Below are positions 17,233-29,323 of a DNA stretch of 41,464 bases, in pieces (position 1 is the first letter of the stretch; the number at the start of each line of letters is the position of its first letter). Source of the DNA: an uncultured Candidatus Saccharibacteria bacterium (GTDB taxonomy: Bacteria > Patescibacteriota > Saccharimonadia > Saccharimonadales > Saccharimonadaceae). The position numbers and the translations under genes are program-made. The stretch is from assembly GCA_946414345.1 (NCBI GenBank), contig CAMKOB010000009.1, positions 1 to 41,464 of the forward strand, given 5' to 3'. The notes under the pieces are model-generated. The model worked only from the letters and a program-made list of their open reading frames with translations. It did no database searches and had not been told where the DNA came from.

Positions 17233-18411
17233 ATGAAATATCTTGCCGTTCTCGGTCGCGAACCTCAGATTTCTCTTGCCGAACTCTCGGCTCTTTATTC
17301 TGACGTCAAACAAACATCACCAAATCTTGCCACTTTTACAACAGAAGAAGTAAGCATTAATCGTCTTGGCGGCTCACTTAAGATCGCCCAAGCAATTGAA
17401 GCCACACCATTAGAGTTCCTCCGCAATTTGCCGGAAGGTAAAATCACTCTCGGAGTATCAGATTACTCTAAAAATGCCAGCAGAAGATCAGCCACCACTG
17501 AAGCTTTAAAACTAAAAAAAATACTCGTCCGACACGGTCGCTCTGTTCGCGTAGTTGAGAACAAAGACGCTTTTCTTTCTACTGCCACATCACTTCATAA
17601 TGGACTATCAGGCAAAAATGATCGAAAAATCGAACTGGTCAAATCTAATTCCAACTGGTACAAAGTAGTTGGCATACAAGATATCGATGCCTACGCCAAA
17701 CGCGACCAAGCACGCCCCGCCCGCGACGCTCGCGTTGGTATGCTTCCACCTAAACTCGCCCAAATTCTCATCAATCTTTGCGGCCCTCTGCCAAAAGGTT
17801 CTCGCATTCTCGACCCATTCTGTGGCACCGGCGTTGTTTTACAAGAAGCTCTTCTCATGGGTTACCAAGTCTACGGCACCGACCTCAGCGAAAGAATGAT
17901 CGACTACAGTACGCGCAATATTGAGTGGATTTCAAAAAGTGCTTTAGAGGAAACTTTCGCAGGCCGCTGCCGAGAACGTAGGGAGCCGAGCCCTGTAAAG
18001 ACAGGCGCGAGGACTCCCGGTTCCGAAAAAGCACTTTTTGAAATCTGTGTCGGCGATGCCACATCCTTTAAATGGCAACCACCAATCGATGCCGTCGCTT
18101 GCGAAAGCTACCTAGGCCAACCAATGTCACAGATTCCCTCCGACTTAAAGCTGAAAGAGCAACAACAGGAATGTGGCAACATTATTTTAGGCTTTCTAAA
18201 AAACTTATCTACCCAAATCAAATCTAACACCCCAGTTGTCATCGCTATTCCTGCTTGGCTACGCCAAAACGCTACCTATGAGCGCTTAAAAATACTTGAC
18301 GATATCGAAGATATGGGGTATAATGTTAGTAAGTCATCTCGTGATGGTCTACTTTATCATCGTGAAAAACAGATTGTCGCAAGAGATATAATAATATTGA
18401 GGAAAAATTAA
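17233..18411 (+). CDS. Trm11-like RNA methyltransferase carrying a palindromic insert
   Basis: 392 aa. The N-terminal 150 residues look like the THUMP-type RNA-binding part. The Rossmann methyltransferase has motif I DPFCGTG (about 195-201), YGTDLS (acidic ribose binder), and a motif IV region ACESYLGQP in place of the usual N/DPPY. The family methylates guanines in tRNA, e.g. Trm11/TrmG10-type G10; the exact base is inferred only. Residues about 232-273 are encoded by a GC-rich palindrome (17928-18055) and have no place in the fold: an in-frame insertion. Leaderless start (TATAAT 17221-17226). Its stop abuts the rpmA ATG. Confidence 0.8.
   Translation: MKYLAVLGREPQISLAELSALYSDVKQTSPNLATFTTEEVSINRLGGSLKIAQAIEATPLEFLRNLPEGKITLGVSDYSKNASRRSATTEALKLKKILVRHGRSVRVVENKDAFLSTATSLHNGLSGKNDRKIELVKSNSNWYKVVGIQDIDAYAKRDQARPARDARVGMLPPKLAQILINLCGPLPKGSRILDPFCGTGVVLQEALLMGYQVYGTDLSERMIDYSTRNIEWISKSALEETFAGRCRERREPSPVKTGARTPGSEKALFEICVGDATSFKWQPPIDAVACESYLGQPMSQIPSDLKLKEQQQECGNIILGFLKNLSTQIKSNTPVVIAIPAWLRQNATYERLKILDDIEDMGYNVSKSSRDGLLYHREKQIVARDIIILRKN
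17928..18055. repeat. In-frame palindromic insertion in the Trm11-like gene
   Basis: The outer arms are perfect over 18 bp: GATTTCAAAAAGTGCTTT at 17928-17945 and its reverse complement at 18037-18054. Inside are nested GC-rich hairpins, e.g. GGGAG with CTCCC around CCTGT-AAAG-ACAGG, and GCAG-GCCG-CTGC. The reading frame is kept across the whole element. It recalls Rickettsia palindromic elements in logic, not visibly in sequence. Confidence 0.8.
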
Positions 18412-23186: not shown

Positions 23187-24254
23187 ATGAAAATATCCGA
23201 AAATGTCCCAATTAAAGAGCTCACCACCATGCGAATTGGTGGCCCCGCACGCTACGTTTTAGAAGTTGATAATCCCTCCGAAATTCCTGAAGCTTACGAA
23301 TTTGCCAAATCCAAAAACCTTCCCGTCTTCATCCTCGGCGGCGGTGCCAACACCATCGCCCACGACGAAGGCTTCGATGGCGTCATACTAAAGTACACCA
23401 AAACCGGTATTATATCCGAGCGGGTGACGGCTGTGGAGGGGGCCCCCCACAGAGTTTACGATGTGGGGGAGGATAACAGCCGGCAGGACCCGCTCCATAT
23501 AATAACGGTTAATGCAGGCGAACCTTGGGACAACGTCGTCGCCTTCGCCTGCGAACGTGGTCTTACCGGTATCGAAGCCCTATCTAAAATTCCTGGCCTC
23601 GCCGGCGCCGCACCAGTCCAAAACATCGGTGCCTACGGCCAAGAGCTCGCCGACACATTTGTTTCAGCCGAAGTATACGATTCCAAAACTAACGAATTCA
23701 AAACTTTAAATAAAGCTGACTTTGGCTTTTCTTATCGCAAATCTATCCTCAACTCCACCGAAAAAAACCGCTATTTTATTATATCTATTACTCTAGCGCT
23801 CCAAAAAGGCGAAATGAAACGTCCATTCTATAATTCCATCGAAAAATACATCGAAGTACATAATATTACCGACTTTTCACCGCAATCCATCCGCGAGATT
23901 GTATCAACAATTCGTGCTGACAAACTTCCGGATCCCGCCAAGATACCATCCGCAGGCTCATTCTTTAAAAACATTTATCTTACGGAGGATCAAGCAAAAA
24001 TCGCTGAAAAAAATGGCTACCCAGTGTATAAGGGCCACGATGGATTCAAAATTAATTCCGGTTGGCTAATTGAACAAGCTGGTTTTAGCGACAAGTTGCT
24101 TCACGGTATTCGCATCAATAAAAAAGCCGCGCTAGTTCTCATCAATGAATCAGCTAATTCATATGACGACCTCGCCAAAGCCCGCACCGAAATAATTGAA
24201 GCCGTCAAAAATAAATTCGGATACACCCTCGAACAGGAGCCAAACGAAATATGA
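23187..24254 (+). CDS. murB: UDP-N-acetylenolpyruvoylglucosamine reductase with palindromic insert
   Basis: 355 aa from the ATG at 23187. It reduces the enolpyruvyl group to make UDP-MurNAc for peptidoglycan, using FAD and NADPH. FAD-binding TTMRIGGPA, ILGGGANT, IPGLAGAAPVQNIGAYG and SAGSFFKN (catalytic Ser) are present. The usual length is about 300-320 aa. The surplus is residues about 73-107, encoded by a palindrome at 23402-23510 and placed between two beta strands of the FAD domain. The TATAAT at 23174-23179 ends 7 nt before the ATG, so a leaderless mRNA is expected. It overlaps folD by 4 nt. Confidence 0.93.
   Translation: MKISENVPIKELTTMRIGGPARYVLEVDNPSEIPEAYEFAKSKNLPVFILGGGANTIAHDEGFDGVILKYTKTGIISERVTAVEGAPHRVYDVGEDNSRQDPLHIITVNAGEPWDNVVAFACERGLTGIEALSKIPGLAGAAPVQNIGAYGQELADTFVSAEVYDSKTNEFKTLNKADFGFSYRKSILNSTEKNRYFIISITLALQKGEMKRPFYNSIEKYIEVHNITDFSPQSIREIVSTIRADKLPDPAKIPSAGSFFKNIYLTEDQAKIAEKNGYPVYKGHDGFKINSGWLIEQAGFSDKLLHGIRINKKAALVLINESANSYDDLAKARTEIIEAVKNKFGYTLEQEPNEI
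23402..23510. repeat. In-frame palindromic insertion in murB
   Basis: About 48 nt on each side are nearly self-complementary. From outside in the arms share AACCG, TATTATAT/ATATAATA, GAGCGGGT/ACCCGCTC, CGGCTGT/ACAGCCG and CCCCCACA/TGTGGGGG, around a short GTTTACGA loop. It is GC-rich, unlike the flanking gene, and keeps the reading frame. Confidence 0.85.
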
Positions 24255-27025: not shown

Positions 27026-29164
27026 TTACGGGGCGTCGATGTCCCACTCTTCACCGGCGTCCTCATCAGCAAATGAGCTTGTTTCCCCCGTACCCGGGTC
27101 AGTATAAGTGACCTCGGGGTCAATCGGGGTAGCGTCGTCCGCCCCTCCGTTTCCGGTTCCATTGTCGCCGTTATTGTCAATGACAGGCGGGGGCGGAGGA
27201 GTTTCCTCCGGTTTTGCCGGAGTAGGAGAAGGCGGTACATAGGAAGGCTCATTTGAGTCTCCCGCCTTCTTCTGGGGTTCCTGCAACTCCTCTTGCTTCT
27301 CCCAATATTCATCCAAGGTGTCGTGCAGCGAGTTGCTCGGTTGCTCATCCTTGGATTCCTTGGCTCCCCGGCCGTTATTTGTGTCTGGTCCAGGACCAGG
27401 CACGTCATTGGGCCCTACATCGGTCCCCTTGGTGGGGTCCTTAGGCTCAAAAGACGGGGGTGGAGGCGGGGGAGGAAGTGTCGGGGTCGGGGTCGGAGGA
27501 GGTAACGTCGGCGTAGGCGTCGGCGTAGGCGGAGGCACCGGCCTCCAGGTCGGAGGCGGCGGTACCGGCGTAGGTGTAGGCGACGGGCTCGGGCTAGGAC
27601 TCGGGCTCGGAGACGGGCTCGGGCTAGGACTCGGGCTCGGAGACGGGCTCGGGCTCGGAGACGGGCTCGGAGACGGGCTCGGGCTAGGAGACGGGCTCGG
27701 AGACGGGCTCGGGCTAGGACTCGGCGAAGGCTTCGGAGTCGGAGTCGGCGTGTTCGGATTCGGGATAACCGTCACCGGTGCAACCTCAGCCACGTTAGTA
27801 GGCTGGAAGTCGCAATCGACCCGGTACCGCACTTCAATCAGCTCAGTGCCCTTGATCCAATCCTTAAACGTCAACATGAAACCACTATGGTTGTGGCTGG
27901 TCATGACGATGACGTCAGGAACACCATCCAATGTGTAGTGGGTTTGGTACATTTGGTCATCCAAACCAGACTTCACATAGGTGATGAGGATCTCATCGCT
28001 ATCCAACAGTGCCGCCTTGTAAAGCTCCAGGACCCTCAGGTATTCATCCTGATCTTCCAGCCACTCCCTAGATTTCGCGTTTATATGCTCCATCAGGGCG
28101 TCTGGATGATCCAGAAGCTCCGTTACAAACGCCCCCAGGAAACGAGTTCCATGAATGACGTCGTAATACCCCATATCGGCTGCGCCTTTCACAGGATCCA
28201 TCGCCAAGACCTCGAAGAAATAGTCGAGGAGGTCATCCACGACAAGCTGATACAGCTCCTTTTCCGTCTTGTTTTCAAGATCCTTGGGTTTGAGTTCGCC
28301 GCTCGCCACTTTTCTGGCGAAAATCTCGGTCAACGGATTCGGACCGAAGTCGTCGTCGTTGACCTTTTCCTCGTCCTCCAAAACCAACAAGTGGCGGAGA
28401 ACATACCAGGGTTCTTCTTCCTCAATTTCCTTGAGAACAGGTTCGGGCGTGGGTTCAGGCGTGGGTTTGGGCGTAGGCTCCGGCGTGGCTGTCGTGGTCG
28501 GTCCCTTAATCACGATATCGTTGCTCTTCTTGGGAATGGTGTCCCATTTTACCCCAAGAGTAAGCATCAAGATCGCAAATATCAGGAAAAGGACCATGAA
28601 GAACCAAGCACAGATATGTGCCATTCTTTCTTCGCGCGAACCAGGAGTGGCCCGCACATCGCGATAGAAAAGGCACAAGTCTACGAGCATCACACCGAAG
28701 ACCATGGTCGACAAGATCCAAACGACAGTCGTCAACAAGGACAACACAAAGTCGGACTTGAACAACCCGGCCACCATAGCGGCCTCCACCGATGCGGCCC
28801 ATGCAAACAGGGCGCTAAGGATTGCAAACATGAACAGCTCTATAGCTTCAGAGCCGCCATGAGTCGGGTGTCTCCACCAGAGAGCCAAGCCAACAATAGC
28901 GGCCAAGCTCACAAGGAAAAGCCCGATATGCAGGATCCAACACCACCACGTCGCCGCAGTAAATGTCGGTCCAAATTTGATAACGAACCACCAGGCCACA
29001 CCCACGATGACGGCGTAAAGCCAACCACCGAGGTTGCAGTGATCCAGGAAGGTCCGCCGCGCCGCGCCAGTAGCCGCAGGCGTCGTCCGTACACTCCCAC
29101 CATTCATCAGATGAATGGTGGCGGCCATGATGAAGATCACGACCAGTCCAGCAATCAACAACAT
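27026..29164 (-). CDS. Six-TM protein with long soluble tail and Ser-Pro repeat
   Basis: 712 aa from the ATG at 29164; a TTG at 29185 is also open but overlaps the Shine-Dalgarno AAAGGAGAG. Six hydrophobic segments occupy about residues 1-210. A Thr/Pro linker, a helical charged domain (about 245-400), then a long (SerPro)n stretch, Pro-rich segments and a Gly/Asp-rich acidic end follow. The DNA is clearly richer in G+C than its neighbours, with different codon choice. It has a consensus promoter and a long leader. No family was recognised. It may be a transferred envelope protein; the (SP)n part could span or thread the cell wall. Confidence 0.7.
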   Translation of the reverse strand: MLLIAGLVVIFIMAATIHLMNGGSVRTTPAATGAARRTFLDHCNLGGWLYAVIVGVAWWFVIKFGPTFTAATWWCWILHIGLFLVSLAAIVGLALWWRHPTHGGSEAIELFMFAILSALFAWAASVEAAMVAGLFKSDFVLSLLTTVVWILSTMVFGVMLVDLCLFYRDVRATPGSREERMAHICAWFFMVLFLIFAILMLTLGVKWDTIPKKSNDIVIKGPTTTATPEPTPKPTPEPTPEPVLKEIEEEEPWYVLRHLLVLEDEEKVNDDDFGPNPLTEIFARKVASGELKPKDLENKTEKELYQLVVDDLLDYFFEVLAMDPVKGAADMGYYDVIHGTRFLGAFVTELLDHPDALMEHINAKSREWLEDQDEYLRVLELYKAALLDSDEILITYVKSGLDDQMYQTHYTLDGVPDVIVMTSHNHSGFMLTFKDWIKGTELIEVRYRVDCDFQPTNVAEVAPVTVIPNPNTPTPTPKPSPSPSPSPSPSPSPSPSPSPSPSPSPSPSPSPSPSPSPSPSPSPSPSPSPTPTPVPPPPTWRPVPPPTPTPTPTLPPPTPTPTLPPPPPPPSFEPKDPTKGTDVGPNDVPGPGPDTNNGRGAKESKDEQPSNSLHDTLDEYWEKQEELQEPQKKAGDSNEPSYVPPSPTPAKPEETPPPPPVIDNNGDNGTGNGGADDATPIDPEVTYTDPGTGETSSFADEDAGEEWDIDAP

Positions 29165-29323
29165 TTCGTTGTTCTCTCCTTTCAAAATCAGAATGAGTGG
29201 GATGGTAACTGCAATATATATAACAGGTTATCAATTGGCATCAAAACCATTTGAAACCTGAGATGATTCGGTTGTTAATGGTCTTCGTCGTTTAAAAAAC
29301 ACACTAAAACTCAGACTGGTTCC

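Follow-up and report, generated by a model that had tools for sequence, protein, structure and literature searches.

A palindromic insert in murB of a Saccharibacterium belongs to a dispersed family of hairpins that appear to be translated within essential genes

Introduction

What is a 109-bp palindrome doing inside the reading frame of a murB gene that otherwise looks complete? The question is raised by a 41,464-nucleotide stretch of DNA, referred to here as the window, from an uncultured Candidatus Saccharibacteria bacterium. The best-known palindromic elements of this in-frame kind are those of Rickettsia. There, palindromic repeats lie in frame within unrelated protein genes, and the host proteins are apparently intact (review PMC10969869). 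An earlier note on the window, made from the sequence alone, had likened the murB palindrome to these elements. A literature search on the repeat, on palindromes in CPR bacteria or Omnitrophota, and on the literal motif returned nothing relevant, preprints and most subscription papers being outside its coverage.

Results

The murB insert

The palindrome is real, and its coordinates, 23402-23510, are exact by the predicted fold, which spans the 109 bp from end to end and pairs 23402 with 23510 as its outermost base pair. With RNA parameters the folding energy is -56.2 kcal/mol, compared with -38.9 ± 3.5 for shuffled sequences (z = -5.0), and none of 200 shuffles folded as well; with DNA parameters z is -5.3. 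As the earlier note had claimed, the murB frame is free of stops throughout the palindrome and the gene is otherwise intact, its product retaining both MurB domains (Table 1). That note had also taken all 109 bp as inserted. The palindrome stands but this extent does not, as only about 84 nt constitute the repeat unit. The outer arms consist for the most part of Ile-Ile codons native to murB, ATT ATA to the left and ATA ATA to the right, which pair fortuitously.

Alignment of orthologs reveals an empty site in most MurB proteins. Nearly all relatives lack the insert and have a short turn of 14-18 residues in its place, and the segment is not kept at the protein level in all related MurB proteins. 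Relative to this turn the gain is approximately 20-24 residues, or 28 codons with the entire unit included, rather than the roughly 35 residues first proposed. By alignment, the insert lengthens the turn that links two FAD-domain strands, and it most likely brings no benefit to the cell. A single-sequence AlphaFold model of this MurB had a pLDDT of 43, too low to reveal the loop, whose position comes only from aligning the sequence with orthologs and PDB entries. Elsewhere in the window, a 719-aa ORF at 27026-29185 on the minus strand contains a long (SP)n low-complexity stretch.

Table 1. Features of the murB locus and of one related site, in window coordinates
Feature	Position	Strand	Description	Evidence
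murB host gene	23187-24254	+	355 aa, UDP-N-acetylenolpyruvoylglucosamine reductase; both flanks of the insert intact	Pfam FAD_binding_4 and MurB_C above cut-off; aligns with solved MurB over 2-353
Outer left arm	23402-23414	+	native murB (..T-G-I-I); pairs by chance, probably outside the repeat	GIK, encoded by different DNA, at this place in sister species G135; pairing not conserved beyond the unit
Repeat unit	23415-23498	+	84 nt (28 codons), made up of the hairpin GGGTGAC..GGCAGGACCC, the five-position outer stem and 2 further bases per end; ends approximate	covariance-model match 23415-23496, 90.8-100.6 bits; limit of arm pairing across copies
Outer stem, 5' arm	23417-23425	+	ends in GGGT; outermost position is a C.C mismatch in the murB copy	fold, covariation, covariance model
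Internal loop GA, 5' side (conserved)	23426-23427	+	covarying non-canonical pair A23427/G23483	counts across copies
Inner stem, 5' arm	23428-23434	+	sequence varies between copies, pairing kept	6 of 7 pairs changed on both sides
Purine-rich internal loop GGAGGGGG (plus first C)	23435-23443	+		GGAGGGGG invariant in seven own-genome copies
Apical hairpin	23444-23469	+	stem 23444-23451 with 23462-23469; GA/GA dinucleotides opposed at 23452-23453 and 23460-23461	fold and covariation
Inner stem, 3' arm	23476-23482	+		covariation
Internal loop GCAGG, 3' side (conserved)	23483-23487	+		copy comparisons
Outer stem, 3' arm	23488-23496	+	begins ACCC	fold, covariation, covariance model
Outer right arm	23499-23510	+	native murB (I-I-T-V)	IIT also in L137 and L132 MurB and in G135
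Empty site (approximate)	17338-17358	+	G135 orthologue occupied, own genome empty	alignment of L353 (G135) with L389 (window); coordinates approximate

Structure of the repeat unit

From the outside inward, the element consists of an outer stem reaching to GGGT/ACCC, a GA/GCAGG internal loop, an inner stem of variable sequence, a purine-rich loop and an apical hairpin of variable length. Across copies, the pairing of the arms outside GGGT/ACCC falls from 0.76 at the fifth position to the background of 0.30 at the sixth. Because arm pairing stops five positions outside GGGT/ACCC, we place the unit at approximately 23415-23498; its exact ends are uncertain, since some copies (murB, hrcA-adk and rpsA) have further TATCC/TAT letters in common.

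The stems are paired in 94% of cells among 39 distinct aligned copies, and the cells changed on both sides number 204, against a mean of 52 in shuffled controls and 16-38 in slid controls. The A on the 5' side and the G on the 3' side of the conserved internal loop also change jointly (A.G 65, G.A 24, G.G 7, A.A 1; Fisher 1.7e-15). Both comparisons count related copies as independent.

Copies in the genome, the genus and beyond

Sequences resembling the arms were searched for genome-wide and proved to be dispersed through the genome, several of them in frame in other genes. Six more copies are 77-83% identical to the murB insert, and a covariance model built from seven copies identifies nine in this genome, each with E <= 5e-7. 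Outside murB there are eight copies: one each inside queA and the genes for a NifS-like aminotransferase and a penicillin-binding protein, a fourth in a pseudouridine synthase gene, a fifth that starts miaA, and three that are intergenic.

The genus contains 641 copies in 91 of 174 genomes, at most 25 per genome, with none found in the remaining draft genomes. Matches occur in the phylum in 26 of 380 genomes and 23 of 313 genera. Among the matches listed from a strict pattern scan of genome contigs, the same architecture is present in ruminant Saccharibacteria, Roizmanbacteria, Uhrbacteria, Kerfeldbacteria and Daviesbacteria, as well as in Omnitrophota and in MAGs filed under Deltaproteobacteria. 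GC-rich matches in Streptomyces, Pseudonocardia and Marinicauda are hardly palindromic past the pattern and are probably due to chance, and the 80 genome matches listed for the element pattern include none from Rickettsia. The hairpin family is much broader than a single CPR genome.

Carriage by phages or plasmids was considered and set aside: 2.9 million viral contigs yielded one exact pattern match, and blastn against phages and plasmids yielded none. At locus L022, a copy at 1501-1584 lies 38 nt upstream of an RNase P RNA gene (1623-1965).

Location within genes and signs of translation

Most distinct copies (75 of 103) are wholly contained in ORFs no shorter than 200 aa; 56 of them have the sense and 19 the antisense orientation. 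When 40 host proteins were scanned with Pfam, known domains were recognised in most of them, in many cases on both sides of the insert, which often falls within or between such domains. The hosts include IleRS, LeuRS, PheT, TyrRS, Obg, YchF, TypA, UvrB, PriA, TopA, LigA, DnaX, an amidase, RNase HII and MnmA. Since an Omnitrophica record has the element within an rRNA adenine dimethylase, the habit of residing in genes is not limited to Saccharibacteria.

For the 52 internal copies, defined as having at least 30 codons on each side, 39 have lengths of 1 mod 3 (p = 1.7e-9 for a comparison with one third; Fisher 0.007 for a comparison with the other copies; related copies are again counted as independent). 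In this length class the unit, counted with its two flanking bases per side, is divisible by three; the other 13 fall into the other length classes. The conserved GGGTGAC contains a stop in one sense frame, the frame used by six ORFs. Five of these six have GGG-TGG, compared with 31 of 97 copies overall. In the sixth (L111), the element lies two codons into the stop-to-stop frame, and the true start may be downstream of it. In addition, the ATG of miaA lies within the element in three genomes (G000, G004 and G006). The length bias, the TGG replacement and the miaA ATG are all expected if the insert is translated and selected for frame.

These observations bear on the idea that mRNA processing takes the segment out or that the ribosome bypasses it, as for a mini-intron or bypass element, leaving a protein of normal length. 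A hairpin that covers the entire insert and a host list with many housekeeping genes would suit such a process. We nonetheless consider it highly improbable, because the preference for frame-keeping lengths inside genes and the near-constant replacement of the conserved TGA by TGG where it is read are expected only if the insert is translated. The hairpin lies in murB and other essential genes, which it leaves intact, and appears to be translated there into an additional loop of approximately 28 aa.

Gain, loss and repeated insertion

Occupancy differs between the genome under study and that of its sister species G135. The copy after rpsA is missing from G135, which in turn carries copies absent here, in ileS and in the orthologue of the window gene at 17233 (Table 1). 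Comparisons of empty and occupied sites show no obvious target-site duplication, the relatives compared being strongly diverged. Pairs more than 85% identical make up 42 of 380 comparisons within genomes and 34 of 4873 between genomes, and G004 has two identical copies with unrelated flanks.

Several sites are occupied more than once. PheT and Obg are each hit at the same point in opposite orientations in different genomes, one YchF loop is occupied in three genomes in two frames, the MurB loop is occupied in G000 and G029 in different frames, and IleRS has insertions near EFDAY in several genomes. To judge from these positions, the same loops are hit independently in different genomes, in other frames or orientations.

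The fold and the distribution together allow us to weigh whether the element is a functional structured RNA, a cis-regulatory or processing signal present in many genes, with its fold under selection. The very strong covariation, which extends to the non-canonical A.G/G.A pair, the invariant loops and the sense-strand bias in genes (56 to 19) are what such an RNA would produce, but a fold conserved for mobility accounts for the covariation equally well. Moreover, the element occurs patchily among species of one genus, in both orientations even at one position of one gene, and deep within unrelated coding genes, and no Rfam family matched it. We consider a functional RNA quite unlikely as the general explanation. 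For the single case of murB, the stem covariation at the same site between this genome and G135 could alternatively reflect local selection on RNA structure.

Half-copy remnants and nested copies also exist. Elements at L112, L118, L120, L382 and L385 lie beside or inside the remains of older elements, nested or partial, and ileS of G135 (L355) contains two complete elements plus a right-half remnant (CAGCAGGACCCGTCCA, read HGQQDPSN). The copies nearest in sequence are sometimes close neighbours, 430 bp apart at L039, 1239 bp at L038 and 960 bp at L378, which hints at local hopping.

Search for a mobilising enzyme

REP sequences are imperfect palindromes with conserved mismatches that are probably recognised as a folded strand. 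The hairpin is likewise an imperfect palindrome with conserved mismatches, and a REP/BIME-type repeat mobilised by a RAYT (Y1, IS200-like) transposase would account for a folded hairpin, its mismatched internal loops and the lack of an obvious target duplication. However, Y1_Tnp gave no match in this genome (98.8% complete) or in any other carrier of the genus, although the same search was positive in other families of the order. The copies are also mostly intragenic, whereas REPs are typically extragenic. This explanation is thus already contradicted for the genus, and we regard it as very improbable.

RVT_1 had no match in carriers G000, G004, G026, G029 and G033, and the TnpB zinc ribbon had none in 60 genomes. 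RAYT/Y1, TnpB and a reverse transcriptase were each rejected as mobiliser, all being absent from this genome. An IS605-type element was rejected as well, with no TnpB in the 60 genomes and no TnpA in carriers of the genus, and no parent IS for the hairpin was found. Most sampled species of genus g1 have 1-4 reverse transcriptases, and the genome of the window has none.

Discussion

We conclude, with a probability of roughly 0.85, that the murB insert represents a single copy of a mobile palindromic element that is non-autonomous and whose in-frame insertions survive. Mobility is indicated because the family is dispersed, occupancy differs between sister species and similar copies cluster within genomes. 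Translation of the insert as a peptide of approximately 28 residues is indicated because copies lie mostly in open frames and show the length and stop-codon biases.

As for the mechanism, the conserved mismatched loops and covarying stems suggest that the element would move as a folded single strand, probably ssDNA. Its conserved internal loops would be recognised by an enzyme acting in trans, and insertion would leave no evident target duplication. Selection would then purge insertions that disrupt the frame or strike functional parts of the protein, and those in frame in tolerant loops would persist; since the latter survive, the same loops would be refilled repeatedly.

A wider proposal, which we offer tentatively and at somewhat less than even odds, is that the hairpins are an ancient mobile class built on a single conserved structural core, which Patescibacteria and Omnitrophota share with a few further lineages and which an undescribed enzyme moves. 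Such a class would repeatedly extend essential proteins with translated loops, at tolerant sites that recur, and would be a general means by which reduced genomes acquire new protein segments.

The earlier note's comparison with the behaviour of Rickettsia palindromic elements finds support, by analogy, in the empty MurB sites and the dispersed in-frame copies. As with those elements, the palindrome is repeated and dispersed in the genome (nine copies here, with a conserved hairpin), and its sites are in frame within otherwise intact genes (75 of 103 in long ORFs, with Pfam domains recognised). Unlike them, the hairpin has different hosts and conserved GGGTGAC/GGCAGGACCC loops, measures approximately 84 nt instead of approximately 150 bp, and keeps a single architecture in several phyla; it is also read in either orientation and in several frames. 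Thus, the hairpin would work like a Rickettsia palindromic element; the likeness is one of behaviour and does not class it as a member of an RPE family.

The hairpins form a much larger and apparently independent set of in-frame palindromes, in episymbionts whose genomes are reduced. The set includes copies in aminoacyl-tRNA synthetases, translation GTPases and proteins of replication, insertions into the same loops serve as natural replicates, and it becomes directly testable whether selfish DNA builds new protein segments. The copies also map the loops of essential enzymes that tolerate approximately 28 residues, and they point to an undescribed mode of movement. Tests are possible because some Saccharibacteria can be cultured with their hosts.

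Bacterial MITEs are short, non-autonomous, multi-copy elements able to fuse to ORFs (PMC10969869), and the hairpin is likewise short, non-autonomous and multi-copy. It differs in being palindromic throughout, whereas a MITE, being derived from an IS, has terminal inverted repeats and a target duplication; for the hairpin no target duplication was seen in comparisons with diverged relatives and no parent IS was found. The two meet in genome G331, where nine near-identical MITE-like repeats (L369-L377) have terminal inverted repeats of approximately 27 bp, TA ends and the hairpin inside. These nine copies were discounted as an active hairpin, as the repeat runs on into the inverted repeats with TA ends of a MITE-like carrier. 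By its sequence context, the G331 hairpin looks like one amplified as MITE cargo.
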